Positions 15,277 to 62,297 of a DNA stretch of 64,000 nt are shown one piece after another. The stretch is from Acidimicrobiia bacterium (GTDB lineage Bacteria; Actinomycetota; Acidimicrobiia; Spongiisociales; UBA5794), in NCBI GenBank assembly GCA_026985095.1, contig JALSQW010000012.1, forward strand, positions 115,810 to 179,809, given 5' to 3'. Within the stretch, counting starts at the first letter, position 1. Every line of letters starts with the position of its first letter. Made by a program: the position numbers and the translations under genes. The notes beneath the pieces were generated by a model that did no database searches, was not told where the DNA came from, and saw only the letters and a program-made list of their open reading frames with translations.

Positions 15277-15289
15277 GACGCTGCCCCCC

Positions 15290-16024: not shown

Positions 16025-16027
16025 GTC

Positions 16028-24968: not shown

Positions 24969-25000
24969 GGGCATCGTCCCTCCGTGCTCGGGCACCGTCC

Positions 25001-27907: not shown

Positions 27908-27919
27908 GACCGGATGGTC
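27908..27919. promoter_or_regulatory. Imperfect operator GACCGGATGGTC before the Hcr genes
   Basis: One mismatch to GACCGNNCGGTC, located 43 bp before the Hcr small-subunit start and 20 bp after the PrpF-like gene. It may give the Hcr genes their own regulated promoter inside the operon. Confidence 0.4.
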
Positions 27920-27961
27920 GGGAGTCGGCGCTACGATGGCTCCACCATCGGGAGGAGCACC

Positions 27962-39755: not shown

Positions 39756-39818
39756 GTCGCTCTCGCTCCCCGCTCGAAGGTGCCCGCCACGTCCGTCACT
39801 CCATCGGCCACCGATGCA

Positions 39819-40616
39819 TCATCGCGTCAGTCCCGAGGGTTTGTCGAGCGGCCAGGCTCGGCTCACCGTCGACGGGTCGACGACGACGTCGATGAGACCC
39901 GGAGCCAGCCCGAGAGGGGCACCGGCCTCGGCGGCGATTCGCTCCGCCAGATCGAGCGGGTGGAGCGGGTCGTCGGGCCATCCCACGACGAAGGCCTGAG
40001 GGAGCCGCCGGAGCTCGTCGCTCTCGAAGACGACCCACCGGGCCACCGTCCGCAAGGCGGCACGCAGCTGAGCGGGCCGATGCGCGGAGAAGCGGCGGAC
40101 CGCCGTCTCCATCTCCACGGGGACGTCGCGACTGCGTTGCCACGCCACCAGCTCCTCGATGCAGGCCTCCATGTCGTCTCCGGCCAGGAACCCCGCCATG
40201 TCCACCAAGATCGATGCATCGGGGTTGGGGCGGTCCGACAGGGCCGGACCACCGAGGAAGACCCGCCGTACGCGATCGGGATGATCGAGGGCGAGGCGGA
40301 GGGCCACCGCGGCACCCATCGACGTCCCGCCCACGTCGACCCGATCCCACCCCAGTTCGTCGAGCACCGCCCGAGCGTCGTCGACGAAGGCCCCGAGCGA
40401 ATAGTCCGCCTCGGTCGTGGGCCAGTCGAGGTCCCCGTGTCCTCTCTGGTACGGCAGCGCGAGGCGGTATCCCCGCGGCGCCTCCAACGCGGCAACGTCG
40501 GGAGTCGCCGTGAGGCCGTGGAGGTACAGCAACGGCGGTCCCGCGCCACGGAGCTCGACCCGCGTCCTGCCTACGGGCAATTGGACGTTCCGAACCATCA
40601 AGGCGTGTGAGTTCAT
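39819..40616 (-). CDS. Alpha/beta hydrolase
   Basis: A 265-residue alpha/beta hydrolase. The oxyanion segment is LLYLHGLTATP, the nucleophile elbow is GGTSMGAAVAL (serine nucleophile), and likely acid and histidine lie in the C-terminal third (GWPDDPLHPLDLAERI). It could deacylate esters such as acetylated or aryl-esterified rhamnosides before or after import. The start at 40616 abuts the operator; ATG at 40598 is an alternative, and neither has a ribosome site, so the mRNA may be leaderless. It heads the importer operon. Confidence 0.8.
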   Translation of the reverse strand: MNSHALMVRNVQLPVGRTRVELRGAGPPLLYLHGLTATPDVAALEAPRGYRLALPYQRGHGDLDWPTTEADYSLGAFVDDARAVLDELGWDRVDVGGTSMGAAVALRLALDHPDRVRRVFLGGPALSDRPNPDASILVDMAGFLAGDDMEACIEELVAWQRSRDVPVEMETAVRRFSAHRPAQLRAALRTVARWVVFESDELRRLPQAFVVGWPDDPLHPLDLAERIAAEAGAPLGLAPGLIDVVVDPSTVSRAWPLDKPSGLTR

Positions 40617-42698: not shown

Positions 42699-42707
42699 GG
42701 TGACATC

Positions 42708-43997
42708 ATGCCGAGGATCGATCCGGAACTCATCGACCGAGAGAACGACCGCCGCGCCGCCGATCATCATCGCCGTGTCGACCATCTCGCTGCGACGCTC
42801 GAGCGCGGAAGGAGCGACCCCGAACACGTCATCTCGGCCATCGCGGCCTTCGACGTTGCGATCCCCTCGTGGGCGCTGGGGACGGGGGGCACGCGCTTCG
42901 GTCGGTTCCCCATCGGCGGGGAACCACGAACCACCGAGGAGAAGATCGACGACACCGCGGCGCTCCATGCCCTGACGGCAGCGAATCCCCGGATCAGCCT
43001 CCACGTGCCCTGGGACGATCCGGACGATCCGGCCGGTCTGCGGGAACACGCCGAGGCACGAGGGATCGGCTTCGACGCGGTGAACTCGAATACGTTCCAG
43101 GACCTCCCCCGATCGACGGGAGATGGTGCGGTCTCCTACAAGTTCGGCAGCATGGCCCATTCGGACCCCGCGGTGAGAGAAGTGGCGCTCGCCCACAACC
43201 TGGAGGTCCTCCAACTTGGGATCGCCCTCGGTTCCACCGCCTTGACGGTGTGGCTCGCCGACGGCACCAACCATCCAGGGCAGGCGAGCTTCCGCGCGCA
43301 GTTCGAGCGGGTCGCCGCCTGCCTGGCCGAGTTGCATGCCGCGATGCCCGACGACTGGACCCTCCTCGTCGAGCACAAGCCATATGAGCCCGCCTTCTAC
43401 GCCTCCGTCAACACCGACTGGGGTAGCTCCCTCCTCCTCGCCCAGCACGCCGGGCCCCGAGCCCGCTGCATCGTCGATCTGGGCCACCACCTTCCCAACA
43501 CGAACATCGAGCAGGTGGTGAGCCGCCTCGCCATGGTGGAACGCCTCGGTGGCTTCCACTTCAACGACTCCAAGTACGGAGACGACGACCTGACCACCGG
43601 CTCGATCAAACCCTTCCAACTGTTCCTGATCATGATGGAGCTGCTCGAGGCGGGCGGCGGTCGGCTGCCCGACCTGGCGTACATGATCGACCAGTCGCAC
43701 AACCTCAAGGATCCCCTCGAGGATCTCCTCCAATCGACCGAGGCGCTCCAGATCGCCCTCGCCCAGGCGCTCGTGGTGGATCGCGAGGCCTTGGTCGACG
43801 CTCAGGACGCCAACGATCCTGCCCTGGCCGGGGAGATCCTCATGGCGGGGTACCGCACCGACGTACGTCCCCTGGTGGCGGAGGCCCGACGTCGCCACGG
43901 AGGAGCCATCGAGCTCGTGGCGACGTACCGAGCTGCGGAGTATCGGAACCTCGCCATCGCCGAGCGCGGAGCGGACGCCCGCTCGACGGGTCTGTGA
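42708..43997 (+). CDS. rhaI: L-rhamnose isomerase (TIM-barrel RhaI type)
   Basis: A 429-residue isomerase of the Pseudomonas stutzeri RhaI/YulE family. Metal-site segments are visible: VEHKPYEPAFYA (Glu), CIVDLGHHLPNTNIEQ (Asp, His) and GGFHFNDSKYGDDDLT (His, Asp). It interconverts L-rhamnose and L-rhamnulose. It is followed by the kinase with a GTGA overlap and preceded at 9 bp by the aldolase gene, so the catabolic order isomerase-kinase-aldolase is complete. Confidence 0.92.
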   Translation: MPRIDPELIDRENDRRAADHHRRVDHLAATLERGRSDPEHVISAIAAFDVAIPSWALGTGGTRFGRFPIGGEPRTTEEKIDDTAALHALTAANPRISLHVPWDDPDDPAGLREHAEARGIGFDAVNSNTFQDLPRSTGDGAVSYKFGSMAHSDPAVREVALAHNLEVLQLGIALGSTALTVWLADGTNHPGQASFRAQFERVAACLAELHAAMPDDWTLLVEHKPYEPAFYASVNTDWGSSLLLAQHAGPRARCIVDLGHHLPNTNIEQVVSRLAMVERLGGFHFNDSKYGDDDLTTGSIKPFQLFLIMMELLEAGGGRLPDLAYMIDQSHNLKDPLEDLLQSTEALQIALAQALVVDREALVDAQDANDPALAGEILMAGYRTDVRPLVAEARRRHGGAIELVATYRAAEYRNLAIAERGADARSTGL

Positions 43998-45310
43998 CGT
44001 CACGGATCGCCGCCGTCGACCTGGGGGCCTCATCGGTACGTGTGGCGGTCGTCGACCTGGAAGCGGATCGTCCTGAGGTGGAGATCGTCTCCCGGGTCGC
44101 TCACCGACCGACGCGACGAGGCGACGGCACCCTCCGGTGGGAGCTCGACCGCATCGTATCTGCAGTCCACACCGGCATCGAGCGCGCCCTGGAAGACGGC
44201 CGGCTGGCATCGATCGGCGTCGACACCTGGGGAGTCGACTATGGGCTCCTGGATGCCGACGGCATCCCGCTCGCCGATCCGGTCGCCTATCGAGACGCGA
44301 GGACCACGTCGTGGCGCCAGACGGTCGAACGGGTCGGCGAGCGGAGGCTCTACGAGCTGGCGGGGCTCCAGCTCGTCCCGTACACGACACTCTTCCAACT
44401 CGCGGCGCACGACCGCGATGAGCTGGCATCCGCATCCCGGCTCCTCATGATGCCCGAGCTGGTGACCCATCTCCTGGCGGACGGCATCGACCACGTCGTC
44501 GGGCGAACGCCGGCGGGCACCACCGGTCTGATCGGCATCGACGACGGCGGGTGGTCCGACGAGCTGGTCGCGGCGGCGGGTATCCCCCACCGCCTGCTCC
44601 CCACGGTCATCACCGAGCCTCGACCCGTCGGACGCTTTCGAGGCGTACCCGTGCAGCTCACGGCAGGGCACGACACGGCATGTGCCTTCGCCGCCGCGGC
44701 GGGCCCGGAGGCGATCGTGCTTTCCGCCGGCACCTGGCTGCTCGTCGGGATGCTCGTCGCCGACCCGTTCACCGGCGAAGATGCCTTCGACGCCAACCTG
44801 TCCAATGAGCCCGCCTATCCAGCGGGCTTCCGCCTGCTGCGCAACGTCGCGGGCATGTGGCTCCTCGACCGCTGTCTGGATGCATGGGGCATCTCGATCC
44901 GGGACGCCACCGAGCACCTCGATGTCGAGCTCGACGGACCCACCTTCGACGCCACCGATACGCGGTTCCTCGCCCCCGACGACATGCCCGCGGCCATCGC
45001 CGCCGCGGCCGGCCTGCCCGACCCCGCAGACACACGAACCGTCACCAGCTGCATCCTCCGCTCGCTGGCCACGACCACAGCCGGCATCGTCGACGATCTC
45101 CGAACGGTGACCAGCCGCTCACCCACCGAGATCGTCATCGTCGGTGGCGGGAGTCGCATCGCCGCCTTGAACGGACTCCTCGAGCTCGCCTGTGGCCTTC
45201 CGGTTCGGGTCGGGCCGGTGGAGGCCACGGCCCTCGGGAACGCGCTCATCCAGGGGATCGGGTTGCGACGCTTCGCGTCATTGCAGGAGGCCCAACGATG
45301 GATGCGCTGA
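43994..45310 (+). CDS. rhaB: Rhamnulokinase
   Basis: The 438-residue FGGY-family kinase begins AAVDLGASSVRVAVVDL (phosphate loop) and has the sugar-binding block SIGVDTWGVDYGLLD typical of RhaB. The second nucleotide motif is EIVIVGGGSRIAALNGLLELACGLPV. It phosphorylates L-rhamnulose at C1. It starts at GTG in a 4-bp overlap with the isomerase, and its end overlaps the rhamnosidase start by 13 bp. Confidence 0.92.
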   Translation: MTSRIAAVDLGASSVRVAVVDLEADRPEVEIVSRVAHRPTRRGDGTLRWELDRIVSAVHTGIERALEDGRLASIGVDTWGVDYGLLDADGIPLADPVAYRDARTTSWRQTVERVGERRLYELAGLQLVPYTTLFQLAAHDRDELASASRLLMMPELVTHLLADGIDHVVGRTPAGTTGLIGIDDGGWSDELVAAAGIPHRLLPTVITEPRPVGRFRGVPVQLTAGHDTACAFAAAAGPEAIVLSAGTWLLVGMLVADPFTGEDAFDANLSNEPAYPAGFRLLRNVAGMWLLDRCLDAWGISIRDATEHLDVELDGPTFDATDTRFLAPDDMPAAIAAAAGLPDPADTRTVTSCILRSLATTTAGIVDDLRTVTSRSPTEIVIVGGGSRIAALNGLLELACGLPVRVGPVEATALGNALIQGIGLRRFASLQEAQRWMR

Positions 45311-48558: not shown

Positions 48559-49356
48559 TCATCGACTCCACGAGTCGATGACGGCCGGGAGCTCGGCGAT
48601 GGAGGCCGCCACCACGTCGGGTCGGTGGGTGTCGTCGGCGGCCTCGGCATCCGCCTGCGTGCTCGACCCGGTGAGGACGAGCACCGTCCGCATCCCGGCG
48701 GCCTTCCCCATGGCGATGTCGGTGGCGAGCTGATCACCGACGACGACGGTGCGCCGAGGGGTGGCACCGAGGATCCTGGCGGCCATGCGTCCGGCCCACG
48801 GCGACGGCTTGCCGGTGACCAGCGGGGCGACACCGGTGGCGTAGGCGACGGCTTCGATCATCGGACCGGTCCCCGGAGCGAACCCCTCCGCGACGGGGAC
48901 CTTGGGGTCGGCGTTGGTGGCGACGAACTCGGCGCCGCCCCAGATGGCGCGGCAGACGATCTCCAGACGCCCCTGATCGAAGGCCGGGTCCTTCCCCATC
49001 ACAACCACCTCGGCCCGGTCCGCCTCTTCCCACCCGACGAGGTCGATGCCCTTCGCCTGAAGAGCTTCGGTCAACCCGACGTTCCCCACCGCCAGGACGG
49101 GTCGGCCCGGATGCAGCTCGGCGACGGCCTCGGCGGCGACGAGCGCCGAGGTGACGACCTCGCCGGGGGCGGCGTCGATCCCCATGGCGGCGAGCTTGTC
49201 GACCCATCGGGCCACCGGGCTCTGATTGTCGTTGGTGAAGAAGGCGTACCGGACACCGCGCGCCCGCAGCTCGGCGAGGGCCTCGAGGGCGCCGGGGAGG
49301 GCCTTCCGACCGCGGGCCACCGTGCCGTCGATGTCGAGGACGGCGCCGTCGATCAT
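48559..49356 (-). CDS. HAD superfamily phosphatase, NagD type
   Basis: The 265-residue HAD-IIA protein has motif I (VLDIDGTVARG), motif II (AFFTNDNQSP), motif III lysine (VTGKPSPW) and motif IV (VVGDQLATDIAMGKAAGM). It should remove phosphate from a small molecule such as a nucleotide or phosphoglycolate. Its start overlaps the UbiD stop by 4 bp, so it is translated with the decarboxylase. A link to prenylated-flavin or aromatic metabolism is not evident from sequence. Confidence 0.87.
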   Translation of the reverse strand: MIDGAVLDIDGTVARGRKALPGALEALAELRARGVRYAFFTNDNQSPVARWVDKLAAMGIDAAPGEVVTSALVAAEAVAELHPGRPVLAVGNVGLTEALQAKGIDLVGWEEADRAEVVVMGKDPAFDQGRLEIVCRAIWGGAEFVATNADPKVPVAEGFAPGTGPMIEAVAYATGVAPLVTGKPSPWAGRMAARILGATPRRTVVVGDQLATDIAMGKAAGMRTVLVLTGSSTQADAEAADDTHRPDVVAASIAELPAVIDSWSR

Positions 49357-50789
49357 CCGCCGACGTACTCCTCCCAGTGGTCGCGCACGAATCGCTCCAT
49401 CTCGGGATCGAGTCGGATCGGGATGGGCCGTTCCTCCTCCGGCCACTCGTACGGCGTCGTGCAGTCGATGATCAGCCGGTTGGTCAAGAACCGGGCCGAG
49501 CGCGGCAGCGACGGGTCGAGCGGGGTGGAGCGGCCGCGATGGAGCACCTGGCTGCCGAACCCGGGTTGGAACTTGAAGCTCATGGCGTACAGCACCTGGT
49601 CCATGTTCTCCGGATCGATGTCCTCGTCGACGACGATGACGGTCTTGAGTCCGTAGTTGCCGGTGGTCGACGCGAAGGCGGCGAGGGCCACCTGGGTCGA
49701 GTGCCCCGGGTACATGGGCCGCATGGAGATGATCGCCAGCATCCGTCCCGCCGACGGGGGCGGGCCGTAGACGGCCTTGATGCCCGGGATCTGGGCTCGT
49801 TTCAGGTCGTTCCACAACGATGCGGTCCGGTTGACGCCCATCACCATGTGGGTGTCGGTGGTGGGTCGTCCCACCGTCGTGGACCACAGGATCGGCTCGG
49901 TGCGGTGGGTGATGGCCTGGACGTGCATGAAGTACGTCGGCTCGTCACCTTTGCCCGAGTAGTGCCCGGTGTACTCCCCGAAGGGGCCTTCGGCGATCCG
50001 CTCGCCCGGCATCATGACACCTTCGACGACCCACTCGGCCGCCGCCGGCACGAGCAGGTCGCTCGTCTCGGCCTCGACGACCTTCACCGGCGCGCCGCGG
50101 AGGGCTCCGGCGACGTCGTACTCGGATTCCTCGAGACCGAACAGCGTGCTCCCACACATGAACAGGGTCGGGTCCGCGCCCGAGACGTAGGCGATGGGCA
50201 TGGGGATGCCGGCTTCCTCGTAGGCGCGGTGGTCGATCTCGCCGTCCTTGCCCTTGATCATGTAGACGCAGAGCTTGTCGTCGTCCTTGATCATGGCCCG
50301 GTAGGTGCCGAGGTTGAGCCGTCCGGTCTCGAGGTTGCGGGTGATGGCGTACCCGGCGGTCCCGAAGTAGCGACCGCCGTCGAGGGGGTAGAACCACGGC
50401 GCCGGGATCTTGGACAGCTTGGCGTCGTCGCCGACGAGCACGTTCTCCTTCGTCGGGGCATCGGATCGATCCACCTCGACCGGGGGCACCATGTTGCCGT
50501 GGATCCGTTCGACCCACTCCTGGGACAGATGCATGAGACTGGTGTCGGGAGGCATCTCGAGCGCCAACGCGAGGCGCTCCCTGGCGGTCAGCGCGCTCGT
50601 GAACACCCGGTGACCCGGGTAGTCCTTGATGTGCTCGAACAGCAGTGCCTTGCCGCCGCCTTGGCGTTCCTCGTTCACCTTGGCCACGTGGCTCAGTTCG
50701 AGGTTCCAGTCGACCTCGCGCTTGACCCGGAGGAGCTCTCCCTCCTGGTCGAGTCGGTCGAGGAAGCTGCGTAGGTCGTCGTAGGGCAT
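49353..50789 (-). CDS. UbiD-family prenylated-FMN decarboxylase
   Basis: This 478-residue UbiD-type enzyme has the cofactor-binding and catalytic segment GERIAEGPFGEYTGHYSG, whose glutamate residues act with an arginine (YAITRNLETGRLNLGTYR region). It also has MIKGKDGEIDHRAYEEAGIPMPIAYVSGADP. Such enzymes decarboxylate, or in reverse carboxylate, aromatic and alpha,beta-unsaturated acids. The UbiX-like gene nearby would supply prenyl-FMN. The IclR gene upstream is likely its regulator. An aromatic acid substrate fits the region. Confidence 0.9.
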   Translation of the reverse strand: MPYDDLRSFLDRLDQEGELLRVKREVDWNLELSHVAKVNEERQGGGKALLFEHIKDYPGHRVFTSALTARERLALALEMPPDTSLMHLSQEWVERIHGNMVPPVEVDRSDAPTKENVLVGDDAKLSKIPAPWFYPLDGGRYFGTAGYAITRNLETGRLNLGTYRAMIKDDDKLCVYMIKGKDGEIDHRAYEEAGIPMPIAYVSGADPTLFMCGSTLFGLEESEYDVAGALRGAPVKVVEAETSDLLVPAAAEWVVEGVMMPGERIAEGPFGEYTGHYSGKGDEPTYFMHVQAITHRTEPILWSTTVGRPTTDTHMVMGVNRTASLWNDLKRAQIPGIKAVYGPPPSAGRMLAIISMRPMYPGHSTQVALAAFASTTGNYGLKTVIVVDEDIDPENMDQVLYAMSFKFQPGFGSQVLHRGRSTPLDPSLPRSARFLTNRLIIDCTTPYEWPEEERPIPIRLDPEMERFVRDHWEEYVGG

Positions 50790-50811: not shown

Positions 50812-51573
50812 TCACAGATCGGCGCCGAGTCGCCGTGAGATCTCGTCCGCCGCCTCCAGGGCGGCCTTGATCGCCACCTCGCCGGGTTGGTCCTCACTGC
50901 GGGCAGTGAACCCGACGATGGTGAGGCCGGCCACGACCCGGTCGTCGACCCCCCGCAGCGGCACCGAGACGGCCCGGACTCCGAGCAGGTACTCCTCCCG
51001 GTCGTCGACCGCGTACCCCTGGCGACGGACCTCGGCCAGCTCGGCCTCGAGCTCGTCGGGATCGGTGATGGTCGCCGGGGTGAACGCCTCGAGGCCGTGG
51101 CGGGCGATGAGTCGGTCGACGTCCGAGGAGGGCATCCAGGCCAGGAACACCCGTCCGAAGGACCCCGCGGAGAACGGGATGTGCTGACCGATGGTGGCCG
51201 ACACATGGAGCCCGCCGATGGGATCGACCTTGTCGATGACGACGATGTGGTCGTCGTGGAAGGTGCCGAGGAGCACGGTCTTGCGGGTCTCGGCGACGAG
51301 GGTCTCCATGAACGGCCGGGCGATGCGACGGACGTCGGTCTGCTCGTGGGCGAGATGCCCGAGCCGGATGAGGGCGGGTCCGAGGCGGTACCGGAGCGTG
51401 GTCGGGTCGCGGAGGAGGAACCGGTCGGCGACGAGGGTGGCGAGGATCCCATGCGCCGTCGACTTGTTGAGGTCGAGGTGGTCGACGAGCTCCGACAGCG
51501 ACCACTCGTCGCGGGTCTCGAAGGCCCGCAGGATGCCGATCGCTCGCTCGACCGCGGACACCTTGCCGGCCAT
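50812..51573 (-). CDS. IclR family regulator
   Basis: A 253-residue IclR protein with an N-terminal winged helix (SAVERAIGILRAFETRDEWSLSELVDHLDLNKSTAHGILATL) and a C-terminal effector domain including RVFLAWMPSSDVDRLI. It sits 22 bp before the UbiD gene on the same strand and probably controls it. IclR regulators often respond to aromatic acids. A candidate site lies at 51635. Confidence 0.88.
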   Translation of the reverse strand: MAGKVSAVERAIGILRAFETRDEWSLSELVDHLDLNKSTAHGILATLVADRFLLRDPTTLRYRLGPALIRLGHLAHEQTDVRRIARPFMETLVAETRKTVLLGTFHDDHIVVIDKVDPIGGLHVSATIGQHIPFSAGSFGRVFLAWMPSSDVDRLIARHGLEAFTPATITDPDELEAELAEVRRQGYAVDDREEYLLGVRAVSVPLRGVDDRVVAGLTIVGFTARSEDQPGEVAIKAALEAADEISRRLGADL

Positions 51574-51703: not shown

Positions 51704-52267
51704 CTACCCCCCGGACCAGCGATCGGTCAGGTCGTTGGCGAGTCCGAGGAGGTCGAGGACCCGGCCCACCGTGTGGTCGATGATCTGGGCCACCGACGTG
51801 GGGCGGTGATAGAGCGCGGGGACCGGGGGCATCACGATGGCGCCGATCTCGATCGCCTGGACGAGGAGGCGAGCATGCCCGAGATGCAGCGGCGTCTCAC
51901 GGGGCAACAGGACGAGCGGGCGCCGCTCCTTGAGCGTCACGTCGGCCGCTCGCAGGAGCAGGTTGGCCGAGTAGGAGTTGGCGATCCCCGACAGCGTCTT
52001 CATCGAGCACGGGGCCACGACCATCCCGGCCGTACGGAACGAACCGGACGAGACCGAGGCGGCGATGTCGTCGATCGGATGTACCACGTCGGCGAGCGCC
52101 TCGACGGCGGACACGTCGAGGTCCGTCTCGAGCTCGATGGTCCGTCGGGCTCCTCCGCTCACGATGAGATGGGTCTCGATCTCGCGGCGCTCGCGCAGCA
52201 CCTCCAGGACCCGGATCCCGTACGCCACCCCGCTGGCTCCGGCGAGCCCGACGACGATGCGTTCCAC
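51704..52267 (-). CDS. ubiX: UbiX-like flavin prenyltransferase
   Basis: A 187-residue flavoprotein of the UbiX/Pad1 family. It begins IVVGLAGASGVAYGIRVLEVL and has the flavin and prenyl-phosphate segments VVAPCSMKTLSGIANSYSANLLLRAADVTLKERRPLVLLPRETPLH. It attaches a dimethylallyl group to FMN to make the UbiD cofactor. The GTG start at 52267 has a strong GGGAGGG site; the frame upstream is longer but lacks one. It stands in the same direction as IclR-UbiD, separated by a promoter region. Confidence 0.92.
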   Translation of the reverse strand: MERIVVGLAGASGVAYGIRVLEVLRERREIETHLIVSGGARRTIELETDLDVSAVEALADVVHPIDDIAASVSSGSFRTAGMVVAPCSMKTLSGIANSYSANLLLRAADVTLKERRPLVLLPRETPLHLGHARLLVQAIEIGAIVMPPVPALYHRPTSVAQIIDHTVGRVLDLLGLANDLTDRWSGG

Positions 52268-53661: not shown

Positions 53662-54969
53662 TCATGCCTGGACGAAGAACCGTTTGGCCTTGAGTTCGAA
53701 GCGAGGCAGGGTGCCTCGGGGGACGGGAACGACCTCGGGCCGTAGGGCCAGGTCGCGGGCGAACCCCTCCGCCACCACGCCGGCGACACCGGCGGCGTCA
53801 CGGCCCTCGGCGCACTCGATCTCGATGAGGAGGTGGGCCATCTCACGCCGACGGGTGACCGTCACCCGGTACTCGTCGATCCCGTCGTGCCGCCGCACCA
53901 ACTCCTCCACCGCCGACGGGAACACGTTCACCCCCCGGACCACCACCATGTCGTCGGCGCGCCCGATGACGCCACCGGCGAGACGCAGGAACGTACGACC
54001 GCACGGACACGGCTCCGGATCGATCTCGACGAGATCACCGGTGCGGTACCGGATGACGGGGAAGCCGACCCGCCCGAGGTTGGTGAGCACGAGCTCTCCG
54101 CGCTCTCCCGGACCCACCGGTCGCTCGCCCCCCGGCTCCACCACCTCGGCGACGAACTCGGACTCGATCACGTGGACGCTCCCGGGCTGGGGTGCGCACT
54201 CGAAGCTGAAGGCGCCCACCTCCGAGGCCCCGGCATGGTCGTAGGCCCGGACTCCCCAGGTCCGCTCGATCCGGGCCTTGGTGGCGGGCACGCTGGCCCC
54301 GGGCTCGCCGGCGTGGACGGTGGTCCGCACACCGAGACGGGCCGGGTCGATGCCCTCCTCCCGGGCCACCTCGGCGAGGCGGAGCGCGTAGGTGGGCGTG
54401 CAGCACATGGCGGTGACACCCAAGCGCTCGATCAGGGCGAGCCGCTGCACGGAGGTCTGCCCACCGCCGGGGATCATCATCGCCCCGATCCGGCTCGCTC
54501 CCCCGACCGCCGCCCAGAAGCCGATGAACGGACCGAACGAGAAGGGCAGGAGCAGACGGTCCGCGGCGGTGAGCCCGGCCCCGGCGAGCACGAACCCCCA
54601 GCATCGTCCCCACCAGTCCCAGCTCTCGGCGGTGTCGTAGACTCGCAGCGGCTCGCCGGTCGTACCCGAGGTCTGATGGAAGCGCGTGTAGGCCTCCTCT
54701 CCGAACGTGCAGTTGCTCGACAGCGGAGCCCCCTCGTGCTGGGCGGCGACCAGCTCGACCTTCGTGGTGAAGGGCAGGCGGGCCAGGTCGTCCAGGTCGC
54801 GCAGATCCTCGGGACCGAAGCCGGTCGCTCCGAGCTTGTCCGTGTAGAAACGGTTCCGCCCCCAGATCTCGCCCAGGAGCCTCGAGAGCCGGTCGAGCTG
54901 GAGGGCACGGAGACGCTCCGGCGGTGCGGTCTCCACTGCCTCGTCGAAGAACCCGGGTCGCTCGCTCAT
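53662..54969 (-). CDS. Phenylacetate-CoA ligase family (PaaK-type) aryl-CoA ligase
   Basis: The 435-residue adenylate-forming enzyme has the PaaK length and motifs: HQTSGTTGEPLRVYDT (ATP loop), YDHAGASEVGAFSFEC, RYRTGDLVEIDPEPCPCGRTFLR and the hinge region IGRADDMVVVRGVNVFPSAVEE. It should form an acyl-AMP and then an aryl-CoA thioester. Its promoter region faces the Bcr operon, so it is a natural candidate for activating the aromatic acid that enters that pathway. Which acid it uses cannot be told. Confidence 0.88.
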   Translation of the reverse strand: MSERPGFFDEAVETAPPERLRALQLDRLSRLLGEIWGRNRFYTDKLGATGFGPEDLRDLDDLARLPFTTKVELVAAQHEGAPLSSNCTFGEEAYTRFHQTSGTTGEPLRVYDTAESWDWWGRCWGFVLAGAGLTAADRLLLPFSFGPFIGFWAAVGGASRIGAMMIPGGGQTSVQRLALIERLGVTAMCCTPTYALRLAEVAREEGIDPARLGVRTTVHAGEPGASVPATKARIERTWGVRAYDHAGASEVGAFSFECAPQPGSVHVIESEFVAEVVEPGGERPVGPGERGELVLTNLGRVGFPVIRYRTGDLVEIDPEPCPCGRTFLRLAGGVIGRADDMVVVRGVNVFPSAVEELVRRHDGIDEYRVTVTRRREMAHLLIEIECAEGRDAAGVAGVVAEGFARDLALRPEVVPVPRGTLPRFELKAKRFFVQA

Positions 54970-55127: not shown

Positions 55128-56294
55128 ATGACCGCCGAGACCGTCGAGAGCATCGTCGACGAGACCCGCACCATCATCGAGGACCCGTCCTACCCGATGG
55201 CTCGCCGATGGCTCGAGGAGCATCCCGGCGGGAAGGTCCTCGGCCACTTCCAGGTCTACTTCCCTGAGGAGCTGGCCCACGCCGCGGGCGTCCTTCCCCT
55301 CAAGGTCGCCGGGTTCGACACCGCCTTGCCCATCCGCAAGGCCGACGCCCATCTCGCCGCCTTCGTGTGCTCCATCGCACGCAGCGCCCTCGAGCTGGTC
55401 ATGTCCGGGACGTTCGATCTCCTCGACATGTTCGTGTTCCCCCCGATCTGCGACGTCGCCCGCCACTCGTGTGCGGTGTGGGCACGGAACTTCGAGGACG
55501 TCGACTGTCAGATCATCTACCTCCCCCACAACGCGGCCTCACCGGCAGCGGTTCCCTACCTCACCGGGGAGTACCGGCGCATCCTCCGCGAGATCGAGGA
55601 GGTCGCCTCCACCCGCGTCTCCGACGAGGCCCTGCGCCGGTCGATCGACGTGTTCAACGAGAACCGTCGCCTCCTTCGGGAGCTGTACCGGATCAAGCGC
55701 GACACCCCATGGAACCTGTCCGCGGTCGAGGCCTACATCCTGACCCGGGCGGCCGGGGTCATGCCCCGTGAGCAGCACAACGACATCCTGCGCCGGGCCC
55801 TGGCCGCCATCGAACGACGCGACGCCAAACCCCAGGACCGCATCAAGGTCGTCTTCTCCGGCGGGTTCTGCGAGCAGCCGCCCCTCGACCTCATCTCGGT
55901 GCTCCAGGACGCCTGCTACATCGTCGACGACGACTTCATGGTGGGGCTCCGCTGGATCCTCGAGGACGTCGCCGCCGACGGCGACCCGCTCGAAGCCCTC
56001 GCCGACGCCTACCTCAACCACTCCGATTACAGCCCCGTCCAACACGACCCCCGCAAACCCAAAGAGGACATGCTGCTGCACAAGATCGAGGCGGCGGGCG
56101 CCGAAGCAGCGATCATCGCCGCGGCCAAGATGTGCGAACCGGGGCTCGAGGAGCAGGTCGGCTACAGCCAACGGCTCTACGACGTCGGGATCCCCCATCT
56201 CGTCATGGAGTTCGAGGAGAAGTCCAACACGTTCGAACAGACCCGCATGGAGGTCGAGACCTTCGCCGAGTCGCTGCTGTTCGAGTTCGCCTGA
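55128..56294 (+). CDS. bcrC: Benzoyl-CoA reductase catalytic subunit, BcrC/BzdN type
   Basis: A 388-residue member of the 2-hydroxyglutaryl-CoA dehydratase D-component family (PF06050). Segments typical of BcrC/BadD/BzdN are GKVLGHFQVYFPEELAHAAG, FPPICDVARHSCAVW, SGGFCEQPPLDLI, DDDFMVGLRWILEDV and AAKMCEPGLEEQV. Cysteines at 81, 108, 115, 248, 263 and 336 include likely [4Fe-4S] ligands. It is the first gene of an operon with a second D-component and two ATPases, the composition of class I benzoyl-CoA reductase. The related dehydratases are the main alternative. Confidence 0.85.
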   Translation: MTAETVESIVDETRTIIEDPSYPMARRWLEEHPGGKVLGHFQVYFPEELAHAAGVLPLKVAGFDTALPIRKADAHLAAFVCSIARSALELVMSGTFDLLDMFVFPPICDVARHSCAVWARNFEDVDCQIIYLPHNAASPAAVPYLTGEYRRILREIEEVASTRVSDEALRRSIDVFNENRRLLRELYRIKRDTPWNLSAVEAYILTRAAGVMPREQHNDILRRALAAIERRDAKPQDRIKVVFSGGFCEQPPLDLISVLQDACYIVDDDFMVGLRWILEDVAADGDPLEALADAYLNHSDYSPVQHDPRKPKEDMLLHKIEAAGAEAAIIAAAKMCEPGLEEQVGYSQRLYDVGIPHLVMEFEEKSNTFEQTRMEVETFAESLLFEFA

Positions 56295-56309
56295 CCGGGA
56301 GGAACACCG

Positions 56310-57632
56310 ATGACATCCCCTACCAAGCACGAACGCCGCATCGTGATCCGGCCGCCCCTGTCGCTGGCCGGTACGACCCGCGACGAGAACCGCACGCTCA
56401 TCCGAGACTGGTGGGCCGACCTCGACGCGGCCGAAAACGAAGGCCGGCCCGTCGCCAATGTGTTCGTGATGGGATCGATGGCGGAGATCCTGCGCACCTT
56501 CGACATGCCCATCTCGTTCCCCGAGATGACGTCGCTGCAGACCGCGGTCCGGGGCCGATCGTTGGAGTACATCACCACCGCGGAGGACGCCGGCTACTCC
56601 CCCGACATCTGCGGCTACGTCAAGGCCGATGTGGGGGTCCACCTCCAAGGCGGAGACCATCCGATGGGTCACCTCCCCAAGCCCTCGTTGGTGGTGGCGA
56701 CGAACCTGTGCAACACCTACATCAAGTGGGGCGAGATCTGGGAGCGGATGTACGAGTGCCCGGTCTTCGTCTTCGACATCCCCGGCTGGCGCGGCAGCGG
56801 ATTCGAGACGAAGAAGGGTTCAGGCACGTTCCGGGACGACGTCCGCTACGTCGAGGCCCAGATCCATGAGCTGATCGCCCTCGCCGAGGAGGTCACGGGC
56901 AGGAGGTTCGACATCGACGAGTTCCGCGAGACCCTCGGCCACGTCAACGAGCTGTCCCGCCTCTTCCAGGAGGTGCTCGAGCTCAACCAGCATCGGCCTG
57001 CGCCGTTCAACGCGCTGACCGAAGGCATCAACCTGATGGGCATCGTCAACGCCTATCGGGGAAGCCCGAAGGGCACCCACTTCCTCGAGACCGCCAAGGC
57101 CGAGTTCGAAGAGCGCATCGCCAACGGCGTCGGGGCGGTGCCCGACGAACGCTTCCGCCTGCTCCTGGTCGGGACCGCCTGCTACTCCAACTTCCGGGAC
57201 TTCGCCGGGCTCTTCGAGGACTGGCAGGGAGTGTTCGCCCATTCCGACTACATGTCGTTCGCCGGCGGGGCCCTCGATCGAGGCATCGTCTACGACCTCG
57301 ATCGACCCTTCGAGTCGATGGCCGAACAGATGGTCCTCAGCACCCAAGAGGCCATGGGCGGCATGTTCTGGGGTCAGGACTGGCTCACCGAGGTCGTCCG
57401 CGACTGGGACGTCGACGGCATCGTCTTCCACGGCGTGAAGTCATGTCGCACCGTCTCGACCGGCCTCCCCGACGAACGGGAATGGCTGCTCCGCCACCGG
57501 GACATCCCCGGCCTGTTCATCCAGTCCGATCTCGTCGATCCCCGGCTGTGGTCCGAGGCCCAGCTCAAGAACCGGATCGACGCGTTCTTCGAGTCACTCG
57601 AGAGTCGCCGGGCCGCCGGCGCGAGGAGGTAG
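56310..57632 (+). CDS. bcrB: Benzoyl-CoA reductase catalytic subunit, BcrB/BzdO type
   Basis: The 440-residue second D-component protein matches the length of BcrB/BzdO. Typical parts are ICGYVKADVGVHLQGGDHPMGHLPKPSLVV (C101), NLCNTYIKWGEIWERMYECPVFVFDIPG (C134) and GVKSCRTVSTGLPDEREWLL near the C-terminus. With BcrC it should hold the [4Fe-4S] clusters and the aromatic CoA ester. It is 15 bp behind BcrC and followed at 4 bp by the first ATPase gene. Confidence 0.85.
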   Translation: MTSPTKHERRIVIRPPLSLAGTTRDENRTLIRDWWADLDAAENEGRPVANVFVMGSMAEILRTFDMPISFPEMTSLQTAVRGRSLEYITTAEDAGYSPDICGYVKADVGVHLQGGDHPMGHLPKPSLVVATNLCNTYIKWGEIWERMYECPVFVFDIPGWRGSGFETKKGSGTFRDDVRYVEAQIHELIALAEEVTGRRFDIDEFRETLGHVNELSRLFQEVLELNQHRPAPFNALTEGINLMGIVNAYRGSPKGTHFLETAKAEFEERIANGVGAVPDERFRLLLVGTACYSNFRDFAGLFEDWQGVFAHSDYMSFAGGALDRGIVYDLDRPFESMAEQMVLSTQEAMGGMFWGQDWLTEVVRDWDVDGIVFHGVKSCRTVSTGLPDEREWLLRHRDIPGLFIQSDLVDPRLWSEAQLKNRIDAFFESLESRRAAGARR

Positions 57633-57636
57633 CACG

Positions 57637-58443
57637 ATGCTCGTCGCAGGCGTCGACGTCGGATCCACCCAGACGAAAGCCGTCGTCATGAACGAGAAGC
57701 GCGAGGTCCTCGGCAAAGGTCTCGTCCCCACCGGCGCCCGACTCAACGAGGCCGGTCAGGCGGCCTTCGAGGAGGCCCTGGCCCGGGCCGGCGCCAAGGA
57801 GTCCGAGGTCGGGTTCGTGGTCGGAACCGGATATGGACGCTATCGGGTCGAGTTCGGCGACGCCCAGGTGACCGAGATCTCCTGCCACGCCCGTGGCGCC
57901 GTGTTCCTGTTCCCGAACACCCGCACGGTGCTCGACATCGGCGGGCAGGACACGAAGGGCATCAAGGTCGGCCCCGACGGCCAGGTCATCGACTTCAACA
58001 TGAACGACAAGTGCGCTGCCGGCACCGGGCGGTTCCTCGGGGCGGCGTCCGAGGCGCTCGAGGTACCCCTTCCCGACCTGGGCGCCTTGGCGCTGTCGGG
58101 ACGGAACCCGGTCAAGATGACCACCACCTGCACGGTGTTCGCCGAATCGGAGATCCTCGGTTGGCTGGCGAAGGGTCGCCATGTCGAGGACGTCGTCGCC
58201 GGTGTCCACAAGGCGATCGCCTCCCGAAGCGTCGGGCTCCTGCGACGGGTCGGGATCGAACCGGAGGTCACCTTCACCGGCGGGGTCTCCAACAACGAGG
58301 CCATGGTCGAGCTCATCTCGGAGCTCGTCGGGATGCCGGTGAACACCAGCTCGGAGACCCACCACTGCGGGGCCCTGGGGGCGGCGTTGTTCGCCCTCGA
58401 ACAGATCCTGACCGGAGCGATGACCGAAAGGCAGACCGTATGA
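57637..58443 (+). CDS. BcrAD/BadFG-type ATPase subunit 1 of benzoyl-CoA reductase
   Basis: A 268-residue acetate/sugar kinase-fold ATPase. It has the phosphate-binding GVDVGSTQTKAVV, the DIGGQDTKGIK loop, and C126 (NDKCAAGTGRFL) and C165 (TTTCTVFAESE), which in this family bind a bridging [4Fe-4S] cluster. It would use ATP to drive low-potential electrons into the catalytic subunits. Its size is that of the short BzdP/BzdQ or BcrD type. It overlaps the next ATPase by 4 bp. Confidence 0.87.
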   Translation: MLVAGVDVGSTQTKAVVMNEKREVLGKGLVPTGARLNEAGQAAFEEALARAGAKESEVGFVVGTGYGRYRVEFGDAQVTEISCHARGAVFLFPNTRTVLDIGGQDTKGIKVGPDGQVIDFNMNDKCAAGTGRFLGAASEALEVPLPDLGALALSGRNPVKMTTTCTVFAESEILGWLAKGRHVEDVVAGVHKAIASRSVGLLRRVGIEPEVTFTGGVSNNEAMVELISELVGMPVNTSSETHHCGALGAALFALEQILTGAMTERQTV

Positions 58444-59258
58444 GCGACATCACCGCAGGTATCGACCTGGGCTCGACCTACACCAAGGCGGTCCTCGTCG
58501 CGGCCGATGGTACGATCCTGGGCCGCCACGAAGGCAAGACCGGGTTCCATTTCGCCAAGGCGGCGGATCGGGCGCTGCGCGAGTCGTTGGACGACGCCGG
58601 CGTCGACCGTGACGACGTCACCTACGTCGCGACGACCGGCTTCGGGCGGTACGCCGCGGACCTGCGGGACCTGGCCATCACCGAGCTGACCTGCCACGCC
58701 TACGCGGTGCATGTGTTGTTCCCCGACGTCCGGACGGTCCTCGATGTCGGCGGCCAGCTCGTCAAGGCGATCCGGATGGACGACAAGGGTCGGGTCCAGG
58801 GCTTCCGCCTCAACGACAAGTGCGCCGCAGGGTCGGGTGCGTTCCTGGAGAAGACCGTCCGCTACCTCGGCCACGACGTGAACGCCATCACCGGCTACTC
58901 GGAGAAGGCGACCAAGCCGGTGAGCGTGTCCTCGGTGTGCGCCGTGTTCGCCGAGTCCGAGATCATCAATCACCTCGCCGCCGGCGAGAAGGAGGAGGAC
59001 GTCACGGCCGGGGCCGTCGTGGCGTTGGCCGGACGGGCCGCTCAGGTCCTCAAGCGGGTCAAGCCCGAGCCGCCGTGCGCGTTGACGGGTGGGCTCACCC
59101 GGGTGCCGCTGGTCCGTCGACAGCTCGAAGAGATCCTCGGCTTCGAGTTCCGCGTGCCCGACCGGGACCTGGGGGCCTTCGCCGGTGCCTACGGAGCAGG
59201 CCTCCTGGCCCACCAGCGGCTCCGCAAGGTGCGGGCCACCGAACCCGTCGCGGTCTGA
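58440..59258 (+). CDS. BcrAD/BadFG-type ATPase subunit 2 of benzoyl-CoA reductase
   Basis: A 272-residue homologue of the ATPase before it, with GIDLGSTYTKAVL, C128 (NDKCAAGSGAFL) and C167 (SSVCAVFAESE). The ATP loop reads VGGQLVKAIR; the usual aspartate of GGQD is leucine here. Having two non-identical ATPases argues for a heteromeric benzoyl-CoA reductase, because the dehydratase activators are single homodimeric proteins. It ends 1 bp before the next start. Confidence 0.86.
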   Translation: MSDITAGIDLGSTYTKAVLVAADGTILGRHEGKTGFHFAKAADRALRESLDDAGVDRDDVTYVATTGFGRYAADLRDLAITELTCHAYAVHVLFPDVRTVLDVGGQLVKAIRMDDKGRVQGFRLNDKCAAGSGAFLEKTVRYLGHDVNAITGYSEKATKPVSVSSVCAVFAESEIINHLAAGEKEEDVTAGAVVALAGRAAQVLKRVKPEPPCALTGGLTRVPLVRRQLEEILGFEFRVPDRDLGAFAGAYGAGLLAHQRLRKVRATEPVAV

Positions 59259-59259
59259 G

Positions 59260-60111
59260 ATGCCGGCCCGGTTCCTCGACCCCGAGGAGGCCGTCGCGCT
59301 CGTCGAGCCAGGCTCGACGGTGGCCGTCGGCGGCATGCAGCTCACCGCTGCTCCGATGACCCTCGTGCGCGGCCTCATCCGGCGCCGGGTGCGGATCGGT
59401 CGGCTGGTGACCAGCCCGTCGGCGTCGCTGCAGGCCGAGCTCCCGATCGCCGCCGGGCTCGTCGACGAGATCGTCAGCCCCTATGTCGGGTTCGAGCATC
59501 TCGGCCTGGCTCCGGCCTTCCGGCGGGCGGCCGAGACCGGAACGCTGCGGATCCTCGAGATCGACGAGGGGTCGCTCACCCATGCGCTCCATGCCGGGGC
59601 CGGCGGGATCCCCTTCGTGCCGTGCCCTCCTGGCGTCGACCTCACCGACATCCCGAGGGTCGATCCCGAGCTGTTCCGGCGAGTCGTCGATCCCTTCACG
59701 GGCTCCGAGCACTGGGCCGTGCCGGCCATCCGACCCGACACGACGCTGCTCGCCGGCGCGGTCGCCGACGAACGGGGCAATGTCGCCCTCGATCGGTTCC
59801 CGTTCACCGACCGCGAGATGGCGCTCGCCGCCCGACGGTTGATCGTCGAGGTCGAAGAGGTCGTCCCGGCCGGGGCGCTCGCCGACCGCGCACCGGGAAC
59901 GACCCTGCCTTCGTTCCTCGTCGACGCCGTGGTCGTCGCCCCGGGCGGCTGCCACCCCACCGAGTACCCGGAGCGGTACGGCCGGGACGAAGCAGCGATC
60001 GTCGACTATCTGCAGCTGGCCAAGGACCCCGCCGGACTGGAGGACCGGGTGGCGGAGCTCGTCGCCGAGAGCGAGGATGCCTATCGAGCACGTCGGGGAG
60101 GGACCTCGTGA
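59260..60111 (+). CDS. CoA-transferase-fold alpha subunit, IpdA/GctA-like
   Basis: The 283-residue protein belongs to class I CoA-transferase alpha subunits (GSTVAVGGMQLTAAPMTLVRGLIR, SPYVGFEHLGLAPAFRRAAETG, E100 and E103 in LEIDEGSLTHALHAGAGGIPFVP). It is close in size and character to IpdA, which with IpdB hydrolyses a ring C-C bond in steroid degradation. In the partner the transferase glutamate is replaced by glycine. It could hydrolytically open the reduced ring from the Bcr reaction, or be a true CoA-transferase. Confidence 0.75.
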   Translation: MPARFLDPEEAVALVEPGSTVAVGGMQLTAAPMTLVRGLIRRRVRIGRLVTSPSASLQAELPIAAGLVDEIVSPYVGFEHLGLAPAFRRAAETGTLRILEIDEGSLTHALHAGAGGIPFVPCPPGVDLTDIPRVDPELFRRVVDPFTGSEHWAVPAIRPDTTLLAGAVADERGNVALDRFPFTDREMALAARRLIVEVEEVVPAGALADRAPGTTLPSFLVDAVVVAPGGCHPTEYPERYGRDEAAIVDYLQLAKDPAGLEDRVAELVAESEDAYRARRGGTS

Positions 60112-60866
60112 CCGGCTGGAGCACGTCCGAGTTGATGGCGATCGTGATGGCCCGCGCCTTCGACGACGGTGAGGTGGTGGTGATGGGGGCGGTCCCGGCG
60201 CTCCCGATGGCAGCCTGCCGCCTCGCCCGTGCCACCCACGCCCCGAACCTGGAGTTCATCGTCGGGGGAAGCGGCACGGTCAGCCCGGAGCCCGACCGGC
60301 TCCCCGCGTCGTCCTGCGGTGGCGACCTCGCACCTGCCGCCACCACCTTGGCCCTACCCGACGTCGTCCTCCTCGAGGGGCGCGGCGACGCGTTCGACGT
60401 CTTCTGCGCCGGCGGCCTCCAGATCGACGCCCACGGCAACTGCAACCTGATCGTCGTCGGCGACTGGGAGCGCCCGAAGCTCAGGGGTCCAGGCACCGTC
60501 GGGCTCCCGTTCCTGCCCAACACCAGGCGCTCGATCATCTACACCCAGAGCCACACGCCGCGGACCTTCGTCGAGAAGGTCGACTTCGTCGGCGGGCCCG
60601 GACATCCTTCGGGACCCGAACAGGCGCGACCGTACCGCAAGGAAGGCCCGACGCTGGTGGTCACTCCCTTGGCGACCTTCGACTTCGACGCGACCGGCCG
60701 GATGCGCCTCTCCACCGTGCATCCGGGCGTGACCGTGGACGAGGTGCTGGCGGCCACCGGCTTCATCCCGGCACCCGGACCCGGGCCGACCGTCACCCCG
60801 GAACCCACCGACGAGGAGCTGGGGACCCTCCGGGCCATCGATCCCGACGGAGTACTGCGAAGATAA
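60108..60866 (+). CDS. CoA-transferase-fold beta subunit, IpdB/GctB-like, lacking the catalytic Glu
   Basis: The 252-residue partner starts with GTG in a GTGA overlap. Residues 51-56 read IVGGSG where class I transferases have ESG; GctB uses Glu54 and this protein has Gly54. Further parts resemble IpdB: AGGLQIDAHGNCN, FVEKVDFVGGPGH, ATFDFDATGRMRLSTVHPGVTVDE. IpdAB is known to cleave a cyclohexenone-type ring of a CoA ester without a transferase glutamate. A ring-opening role here is inferred, not shown. Confidence 0.75.
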   Translation: MTGWSTSELMAIVMARAFDDGEVVVMGAVPALPMAACRLARATHAPNLEFIVGGSGTVSPEPDRLPASSCGGDLAPAATTLALPDVVLLEGRGDAFDVFCAGGLQIDAHGNCNLIVVGDWERPKLRGPGTVGLPFLPNTRRSIIYTQSHTPRTFVEKVDFVGGPGHPSGPEQARPYRKEGPTLVVTPLATFDFDATGRMRLSTVHPGVTVDEVLAATGFIPAPGPGPTVTPEPTDEELGTLRAIDPDGVLRR

Positions 60867-60875
60867 GGAGACACC

Positions 60876-61619
60876 ATGGAGTTCGAGAACGAGATCGTCC
60901 TGGTCACCGGCGGCGCCAGCGGCATCGGTGCAGCCACGGTCGCCGCCTTCGCCGCGGAGGGGGCCACGGTCGGGATCTGCGACGTCGACGTCGACGGCGC
61001 CGACGCCGTCGCCCGGCAACATGCGAACGCCTTCGTCGTAGAGATGGACGTCACCGACGCGGAGGGAGTGAAGGCCGCGGTCGACGACATCGCCGCCGAG
61101 CACGGTCGGATCGACGTGCTGGCCAACGTGGCCGGGTGGGACCGGGTCATGGCGTTCGTCGACACCACCCCGGAGTTCTGGGACCGGGTCATCGCCATCA
61201 ACTACCGCGGGATCCTTGCCACCTGCCACGCGGTGCTCCCGCACATGATCGAGGCCGGCGGCGGCGCCATCGTGAACACGGCGTCGGAGGCCGGGCGGAA
61301 CGGGTCGTCGGGTGAGGCCGTCTACTCGGGGACCAAAGGCGGCGTCATCGCCTTCTCCAAGGCCGTCGCCCGAGAGGTGTCCCGTCACGGGATCCGCGTC
61401 AACGTCGTGGCCCCCGGCCTCATCGAGACGCCCCTGCTGCGAGGGATGATCGACGAGGGTCACGGGCGTCTCATGGAGGCCATCGTCAAGGCGACCCCCA
61501 TCCGTCGCTTCGGTCGCCCCGAGGAGGTCGCCGACGCCATCGTCTTCCTCGCCTCGGACCGGGCGAGCTTCGTCACCGGTCAGACCCTCGGAGTGAGTGG
61601 CGGGTTGGTGATGGGCTGA
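60876..61619 (+). CDS. SDR dehydrogenase, BadH-like (2-hydroxycyclohexanecarboxyl-CoA dehydrogenase)
   Basis: A 247-residue SDR with TGGASGIGAATVAAFA, the active set S137, Y150 and K154, and stretches that closely match BadH of Rhodopseudomonas palustris as I recall it: AGWDRVMAFVDTTPEFW, GSSGEAVYSGTKGG and TGQTLGVSGGLVMG. BadH oxidises the alicyclic hydroxy-CoA before ring opening. A GATAAGGAGACACC site precedes the ATG. Its position behind Bcr and IpdAB-like genes supports this role. Confidence 0.8.
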   Translation: MEFENEIVLVTGGASGIGAATVAAFAAEGATVGICDVDVDGADAVARQHANAFVVEMDVTDAEGVKAAVDDIAAEHGRIDVLANVAGWDRVMAFVDTTPEFWDRVIAINYRGILATCHAVLPHMIEAGGGAIVNTASEAGRNGSSGEAVYSGTKGGVIAFSKAVAREVSRHGIRVNVVAPGLIETPLLRGMIDEGHGRLMEAIVKATPIRRFGRPEEVADAIVFLASDRASFVTGQTLGVSGGLVMG

Positions 61620-61679: not shown

Positions 61680-62297
61680 ATGAGCACCGACGACACACTG
61701 GTCGACGTCAACGACCTCACCGCGAAACAGGAGCATCTGGTCCGCACCGGCTACCAGGTGTTCTCCGAACAAGGCATCGACGGGGCGTCGCTCCAGGAGA
61801 TCGCCGACCGGGCCGAGGTGTCCAAAGGGCTGATCCTCTATCACTTCGGTTCCAAGGAGGCCTTCGCCCTGGCGACGATGGAGTGGGCACTCACTCGCAC
61901 CGCCGAGAGGATCCGTCGCTCCCTGGCGACCGCAGCCTCCCCCGAGGAGCGGATCTCGGCGATGCTGCGAGCCATCTTCCACAACGCCGCCGCCAACCGG
62001 CGGTTCTACCTGACCTACCTCGACCTGCTGACCCGCGCGGCCCGGGTGGACAGCTTCGGGCAGGTGAACGACACCTTCCGGACCATCGTCAACTCGCTCT
62101 ACCGCGACGTGGTCGCCCAGGGTGTCGAGGAGGGCGTCTTCGACGTCGGTGACCTCGACGAGGCCGCCGAGGCGGTGCGGGCCATCATCGACGGCACCTT
62201 CCTCCTGTGGCTCCAGGAGACGCACTGGCGCCGGGAACACGCCGCCTACCGGGACCGCTGCCGGCGTGCCCTGCTGCGCTACCTGGGCTGCCGCTGA
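61680..62297 (+). CDS. TetR family regulator, probable master of the aromatic regulon
   Basis: A 205-residue TetR protein with helix-turn-helix at about residues 37-60 (LQEIADRAEVSKGLILYHFGSKEAF). The start at 61680 is chosen over 61650 because GGAGGG lies upstream at 61662. It has a matching operator directly in front and follows the Bcr operon, so it is the best candidate to bind GACCGNNCGGTC at all sites. An aryl-CoA effector is likely but not shown. Confidence 0.86.
   Translation: MSTDDTLVDVNDLTAKQEHLVRTGYQVFSEQGIDGASLQEIADRAEVSKGLILYHFGSKEAFALATMEWALTRTAERIRRSLATAASPEERISAMLRAIFHNAAANRRFYLTYLDLLTRAARVDSFGQVNDTFRTIVNSLYRDVVAQGVEEGVFDVGDLDEAAEAVRAIIDGTFLLWLQETHWRREHAAYRDRCRRALLRYLGCR

Follow-up and report, generated by a model that had tools for sequence, protein, structure and literature searches.

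A benzoyl-CoA reductase operon of the MBR lineage in an uncultured Acidimicrobiia bacterium, extended by a candidate ring-opening cassette

In anoxic carbon cycling, the loss of aromaticity brought about by class I reductases is a key step, and the ring opening that follows is regarded as one conserved sequence of the enzymes Dch, Had and Oah. The locus described here raises the question of how the reduced ring is oxidised and opened in a genome in which none of these three enzymes has a canonical match. It lies in a 64,000-nt window, the whole stretch of DNA that was analysed, on contig JALSQW010000012.1 of an uncultured Acidimicrobiia bacterium (GCA_026985095.1; genome label G000; 2.93 Mb, 70 contigs, completeness 100%, contamination 0.25%). 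Four genes at positions 55128-59258 encode a class I benzoyl-coenzyme A (CoA) reductase (BCR), and the operon continues without a gap into genes for a pair of the CoA-transferase superfamily, here called TrA and TrB (together TrAB), a short-chain dehydrogenase (SDR) and a TetR-family regulator. As far as we found, a BCR operon that is extended by TrAB and a BadH-like dehydrogenase, in a genome without a canonical Had, Oah or Dch match, is new. The scheme as a whole, in which a benzoyl-CoA reductase of the 3-methylbenzoyl-CoA reductase (MBR) lineage would be followed by a hydratase, the SDR and ring opening by TrAB, was given a probability of about 0.7.

The four reductase open reading frames are tightly packed on the plus strand. 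They encode the C/gamma subunit (MbdN/BcrC-type; 55128-56294, 388 residues), the B/beta subunit (MbdO/BcrB-type; 56310-57632, 440 residues), the A/alpha ATPase subunit, an MbdQ-type electron activator (57637-58443, 268 residues), and the D/delta ATPase subunit (MbdP-type; 58440-59258, 272 residues). The first-pass annotation of this DNA had described two different D-component subunits and two different ATPases encoded consecutively on the plus strand, and its coordinates proved exact. The motifs that it quoted were all present in the translated frames, with GGFCEQPPLDLI and AAKMCEPGLEEQV located in the 388-residue protein and NDKCAAGTG in the 268-residue protein; NDKCAAGSG was found in the 272-residue protein. 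When compared with solved structures, the C subunit matched MbdN best (9g87_B, 420 bits; HadC 162, BzdN 117), the B subunit MbdO (9g87_A, 399 bits; HadB 105, BzdO 98), the A ATPase MbdQ (9gai_D, 358 bits; HgdC activator 224) and the D ATPase MbdP (9gai_C, 227 bits; then MbdQ 170). The two distinct HGD-D catalytic subunits and the two distinct ASKHA ATPase subunits thus each pair singly with MbdN, MbdO, MbdQ and MbdP. In a search of the genome, HGD-D (PF06050) genes were found at the reductase locus only, as two different domains, and nowhere else. The same C-B-A-D gene order, for which the first-pass annotation had proposed a search, was repeated in dozens of named genomes; given this recurrence and structure-match E-values of 1e-66 to 1e-125, the reductase lies far beyond chance. 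Base composition was even along the whole window, and a 98%-identical reductase copy was present in an "Acidimicrobiia bacterium" metagenome-assembled genome (MAG) of the same genus (L052, G001), so that a binning artefact is unlikely; contamination or misbinning was rejected on these grounds and on the length of the contig.

These data support the assignment of the four genes, from their sequences, to a class I (ATP-dependent) benzoyl-CoA reductase of the MBR (MbdNOQP) lineage rather than of the BcrCBAD or BzdNOPQ type. The earlier proposal of a class I enzyme of four subunits is therefore retained, while its placement with BcrCBAD/BzdNOPQ gives way to the one-to-one matches with MBR. Compared with MBR (9g87/9gai), the window has its best matches in all four subunits and shares Cys248, the B-subunit cluster ligands and the superclade, but the B subunit is only 45% identical to MbdO, the window belongs to a separate, mostly actinobacterial branch, and TrAB and the SDR follow the reductase. 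The BZD-type enzyme (BzdNOPQ, 8s02) likewise combines two catalytic and two ATPase subunits, and the three cluster cysteines of BzdO are kept; in contrast, identity of the B subunit is about 25%, only three of the six BzdN [8Fe-9S] cysteines are present, and BzdO His131 is replaced by Tyr. The BCR-type was represented by NCBIfam models only. Its models TIGR02263 (302 bits, cut-off 421) and TIGR02260 (212 bits, cut-off 487) were the best NCBIfam matches of the catalytic subunits, although under the equivalog cut-offs, and the A ATPase has 268 residues against the 432 positions of the BcrA model. Assignments to the BZD-type, to the BCR-type, to a double-cubane protein and to a 2-hydroxyacyl-CoA dehydratase were rejected on scores, tree and cysteine ligands.

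The alignments showed that Cys81, Cys108 and Cys336 of the C subunit are conserved, and that Cys248 (in GGFC) is common to MbdN and the other MBR-clade sequences aligned and is specific to this lineage. Of the six cysteines of the BzdN [8Fe-9S] cluster, only three are present in the C subunit, as in MbdN, from which we infer that the C subunit carries a smaller cluster than the BzdN double cubane. The B subunit is predicted to hold the active-site [4Fe-4S] cluster; its three cluster cysteines align with Cys95/128/380, the cluster cysteines of BzdO (PMC11971306). Glu72 of the B subunit is also found in MbdO, and the position of BzdO His131, Tyr in the window, is Phe in MbdO. Each ATPase retains the two cysteines expected for the bridging cluster, in NDKCAAGTG and TTCTVFAE of subunit A and in NDKCAAGSG and SVCAVFAE of subunit D.

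A single scan across the named genomes yielded 343 relatives, of which 80 were kept. They span Actinomycetota, Chloroflexota, Gemmatimonadota, Acidobacteriota, Planctomycetota, Dormibacterota, Zixiibacteriota, Armatimonadota, Archaea and others. In the C-subunit tree, with MbdN, HadC and BzdN as references, the window fell inside an MBR clade (support 99) that is apart from HadC and BzdN and has three parts; the long branches of HadC and BzdN leave the position of the root unsure. The first part is X1 (Dormibacterota, L064, L080). The window is in X2 (14 rows, support 99), a mainly actinobacterial part with further Acidimicrobiia, Thermoleophilia and additional taxa, and MbdN is in Y (51 rows, support 100), which also includes other Acidimicrobiia. 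The view that this locus extends the enzyme to an actinobacterium is weak, because relatives occur in many phyla and bcrBC with boxBC was reported in 2025 from marine-sediment Acidimicrobiia MAGs of order UBA5794 (PMC12008989). The taxonomic range is thus not new in itself and was rejected as the main point. MBR-lineage BcrC was also observed in marine archaeal MAGs (L121, L126), one of them Poseidoniales, and the L121 genome also encodes canonical Had, together with an Oah that scores just below cut-off. The label of L053 looks doubtful; it is titled Acidobacteria, yet it is one and the same contig as G069:C46, which is listed in the phylum of the window.

What is unusual lies downstream of the reductase. 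TrA (59260-60111, plus strand) is the alpha subunit of the pair and a proposed ring-opening hydrolase (AibA 119 bits, IpdA 98 bits among PDB entries), and TrB (60108-60866, plus strand), the beta subunit, has an invariant Gly at the position of the catalytic Glu. This position is Glu54 in glutaconate CoA-transferase (1poi alignment), and Gly occupied it in all sequences aligned; a role of TrAB as a plain CoA-transferase was rejected on the missing Glu. In TrA, Glu100 and Glu103 were invariant in 12 orthologues, and both are present in IpdA, whereas the second has no counterpart in AibA. One of these two presumably corresponds to the catalytic Glu105 of IpdA. The substrate of Oah, 6-oxocyclohex-1-ene-1-carbonyl-CoA, has a ring system identical to that of COCHEA-CoA, so that the steroid ring hydrolase IpdAB (6co6) acts on the same 6-oxocyclohexene-carbonyl-CoA core as Oah. 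COCHEA-CoA is a substituted 6-oxocyclohex-1-ene-1-carboxyl-CoA, which IpdAB hydrolyses without CoA transfer, the transferase Glu being likewise lost in IpdB (PMC5380842). TrAB is similar to IpdAB in its CoA-transferase fold, in the lost beta Glu and in the two acidic residues of TrA, although similarity is low (98 bits), TrA forms a separate clade in its tree, and TrAB lies in a BCR operon and not in a steroid cluster.

The SDR (60876-61619, plus strand) is a proposed 6-hydroxycyclohexene-carbonyl-CoA dehydrogenase replacing Had, with BadH TIGR03206 as its best NCBIfam model (255 bits, cut-off 431). Its place after TrAB is kept across phyla, and the order C-B-A-D-(crotonase)-TrA-TrB-SDR recurs in Acidimicrobiia, Thermoleophilia, Dormibacterota and Chloroflexota. 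The operon ends with the TetR-family regulator (61680-62297, plus strand; Pfam TetR_N and TetR_C_6), which is kept in L050-L052 and L054.

No match was found in G000 to canonical Oah or to the Dch model at 1e-30, or to canonical Had at 1e-60. The canonical enzymes (Dch/Had/Oah, TIGR03189/03201/03200) occupy the equivalent pathway position and lie beside sister-branch BCRs in related genomes, in contrast to the window. At these thresholds, TrAB relatives of the same branch also gave no canonical Dch, Had or Oah match (five of them were examined for Dch), and canonical Had was absent from 14 of 14 TrAB genomes. Of 49 distinct genomes in which both were looked for, 14 have a TrA orthologue (45-100% identity), 13 have canonical Oah, and none has the two together (Fisher test, p = 0.01), an exclusion that is only suggestive because it amounts to 3-4 independent contrasts on the tree. 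Within X2, L055 and L057, which have canonical Oah and Had and no TrAB, form the sister group of the TrAB-bearing L054. Across 397 sampled Actinomycetota genomes, close TrA orthologues were confined to G000 and G069, both with the BCR branch of the window. In genome G484, the genes boxC, boxB, a 349-residue crotonase, TrA, TrB and SDR are consecutive (L156, 6081-13594), and the contig also carries a branch-Y BCR at a distance of about 20 kb. The cassette there stands directly behind boxC-boxB and is thereby tied to benzoyl-CoA, but not only to a BCR next to it.

A genome of the same family, G007, offers a comparison. It has orthologues of window and contig genes (UbiD 77%, UbiX 75%, IclR 70%, HAD phosphatase 65%, HcrABC 68-80%, BoxC/BoxB 83-85%), and its BCR is of the sister (MbdN-branch) type, with 40-61% identity per subunit, beside canonical Had-Oah-Dch. 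Because of an internal stop in its frame, the G007 C subunit is not in the tree; the congener G024 falls in branch Y. Since orthologous peripheral genes accompany the other reductase and Had-Oah-Dch, the same peripheral pathway feeds either module, in support of benzoyl-CoA as their shared substrate and of TrAB/SDR as the replacement of Oah/Had. We consider it an even bet that TrAB and SDR form a second, non-homologous route of oxidation and opening, that this cassette travels with an early-branching MBR-lineage group (Actinomycetota, Dormibacterota, Chloroflexota), and that one family has swapped whole reductase modules behind the same peripheral pathway. As a separate observation, two genes (380 and 606 residues; L165, 9425-12473) lie between UbiX and UbiD in G007, look by eye like a phenylphosphate synthase of the PEP-synthase type, suggesting a phenol-to-4-hydroxybenzoate route, and are absent from the window.

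The surroundings of the operon point to benzoyl-CoA as the probable substrate of the reductase. Divergent from the operon is a PaaK-like aryl-CoA ligase gene (53662-54969, minus strand; NCBIfam PaaK models 265/228 bits, under cut-offs), which is kept beside the BCR in L049, L050, L052 and partly in L051. Further upstream on the minus strand are genes for a UbiX flavin prenyltransferase (51704-52267; NF004685 261 bits, cut-off 188), an IclR-family regulator (50812-51573; Pfam IclR_C and HTH_IclR), whose 70% orthologue lies in the G007 aromatic cluster, and a UbiD-family (de)carboxylase (49353-50789) nearest to phenylphosphate carboxylase beta (TIGR02724 410 bits, cut-off 469; UbiD-family model TIGR00148 327 bits, cut-off 245). 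A 4-hydroxybenzoyl-CoA reductase is encoded at 27914-31766 on the plus strand (gamma 27914-28429, alpha 28426-30795, beta 30795-31766), with TIGR03194 (814 bits) and TIGR03195 (268 bits) as best models for alpha and beta, a tie with related models for gamma, and orthologues in G007, L049 and L050. Its beta subunit has a cysteine-bearing insert, with Cys120/136/144/153 spaced as for the additional [4Fe-4S] cluster of the Thauera enzyme. The minus-strand genes at 19153-23745 encode KorAB- and IorAB-type 2-oxoacid:ferredoxin oxidoreductases (NF006412 557 bits, cut-off 411; TIGR03336 676 bits, cut-off 651), candidate suppliers of reduced ferredoxin. Past the window end, about 16 kb downstream of the operon on the same contig, lies an aerobic benzoyl-CoA cluster (G000:C12:183193-192685, L162) of benzoate-CoA ligase (625 bits, cut-off 375), a five-gene branched-chain-type ABC transporter, BoxC (873, cut-off 712) and BoxB (858, cut-off 499). 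An aa3-type cytochrome oxidase is also encoded in G000, and the simplest reading is a facultative lifestyle in which benzoyl-CoA is used aerobically (Box) and anaerobically (BCR). The first-pass annotation had derived benzoyl-CoA use from composition and neighbours; the context supports it much more strongly than composition did, and the substrate still follows by inference.

In the proposed mechanism, benzoyl-CoA would be supplied by the aryl-CoA ligases and 4-hydroxybenzoyl-CoA reductase, with the UbiD/UbiX pair further upstream. ATPases A and D would share a [4Fe-4S] cluster and use ATP to drive low-potential electrons into the B/C dimer from reduced ferredoxin, which the neighbouring KorAB/IorAB enzymes would probably provide. 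The cysteine-bound [4Fe-4S] cluster of the B subunit would then reduce the ring to a cyclic dienoyl-CoA, which a putative enoyl-CoA hydratase would hydrate and the SDR of the operon would oxidise. Finally, TrAB, with its IpdAB-like CoA-transferase fold, would open the resulting beta-oxo ring thioester hydrolytically in place of a crotonase-type Oah.

Several observations weigh against this scheme. All four subunits score under the NCBIfam Bcr equivalog cut-offs; MbdN and MbdO themselves miss these cut-offs too, so that they do not exclude the MBR lineage. The genes could instead encode a 2-hydroxyacyl-CoA dehydratase of the HadBC/HgdAB/FldBC type with activators, given the common superfamily (PF06050) and HadBC as second-best structure matches, but MBR is ahead of HadBC by 258 and 294 bits, the two distinct ATPases pair with MbdQ and MbdP, HadC falls outside the MBR clade (support 99), and the gene context is aromatic. 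A dehydratase, named in the first-pass annotation as the outcome that would overturn its call, is therefore hardly credible. For this branch, known from gene sequences, the substrate may be an aromatic-CoA ester distinct from benzoyl-CoA. A substrate that is a substituted benzoyl-CoA or another aryl-CoA altogether (3- or 4-methyl-, hydroxy- or halobenzoyl-CoA, or a heteroaryl-CoA) would suit the closest characterised enzyme, which is a 3-methylbenzoyl-CoA reductase, the modest B-subunit identity to MbdO, and the upstream ligase, which is PaaK-like and not a benzoate-CoA ligase. We consider such a substrate unlikely, since 4-hydroxybenzoyl-CoA reductase, benzoate-CoA ligase and BoxBC nearby converge on benzoyl-CoA, and the peripheral orthologues sit with a canonical Had-Oah-Dch benzoyl-CoA cluster in G007.

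Further points concern the ring-opening step. TrA is distant from both IpdA and AibA and the placement of these two in the TrA tree is unsure, few contrasts underlie the exclusion of TrAB and Oah, 22 of the 49 genomes have neither, no dienoyl-CoA hydratase was assigned in G000, and a BadI/MenB-like crotonase lies between D and TrA in X1 and some X2 genomes. In these genomes TrAB may act after or together with this crotonase, and may have a different role there. An MBR-type reductase might accordingly act on benzoyl-CoA while TrAB serves as an AibAB-like decarboxylase (for example, of glutaconyl-CoA at a later stage of the pathway) or an aromatic-acid CoA-transferase and an unrecognised crotonase opens the ring. 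The best solved-structure match of TrA is AibA, the BadI/MenB-like crotonase of other TrAB operons could open the ring, and G000 has many crotonase candidates. However, the transferase Glu is Gly in every TrB aligned, TrA retains the second acidic residue of IpdA that AibA lacks, and G000 has no Oah-like crotonase at 1e-30, in a search in which other TrAB genomes gave BadI-like crotonases with E-values of about 1e-35 to 1e-48. A decarboxylase would also leave the joint absence of Had and Oah unexplained, and we regard this other role of TrAB as doubtful. Ring opening by TrAB in place of Oah itself stands at about even odds on sequence grounds, because TrA stands in a clade apart and has its best structure match, by a small margin, in the decarboxylase AibA.

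If the TrAB cassette is a widespread alternative, surveys that use Oah as the marker gene would overlook a group of aromatic degraders, and the CoA-transferase fold would gain a new reaction context. The module swap, if true, would be a natural system for studying pathway assembly, and the co-location of BCR with aerobic BoxBC indicates that organisms may process benzoyl-CoA with or without oxygen. The literature searched under MBR subunit or enzyme names yielded little. Plasmid records held relatives of about 25-33% identity only, which, where annotated, belong to the 2-hydroxyacyl-CoA dehydratase family.

Additional features were observed elsewhere in the window. Genes at 13518-24974 (minus strand) and 25230-27888 (plus strand) encode LeuC/LeuD-like proteins, an SDR, an enoyl-CoA hydratase, a CaiB transferase, a TetR regulator, the 2-oxoacid oxidoreductases, and LeuA-like, DUF35/thiolase and PrpF-like proteins. 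Several of them have orthologues (59-72%) beside a canonical BCR cluster in G056 (L164), and others in L097; a downstream or side pathway of aromatic degradation is possible. The stretch at 40671-45310, which lies between the two aromatic islands, carries genes of L-rhamnose catabolism (RhaD-type aldolase/dehydrogenase, isomerase, rhamnulokinase-like). The AT skew was strong (0.23) at 36001-40000, across minus-strand ABC transporter-like genes.

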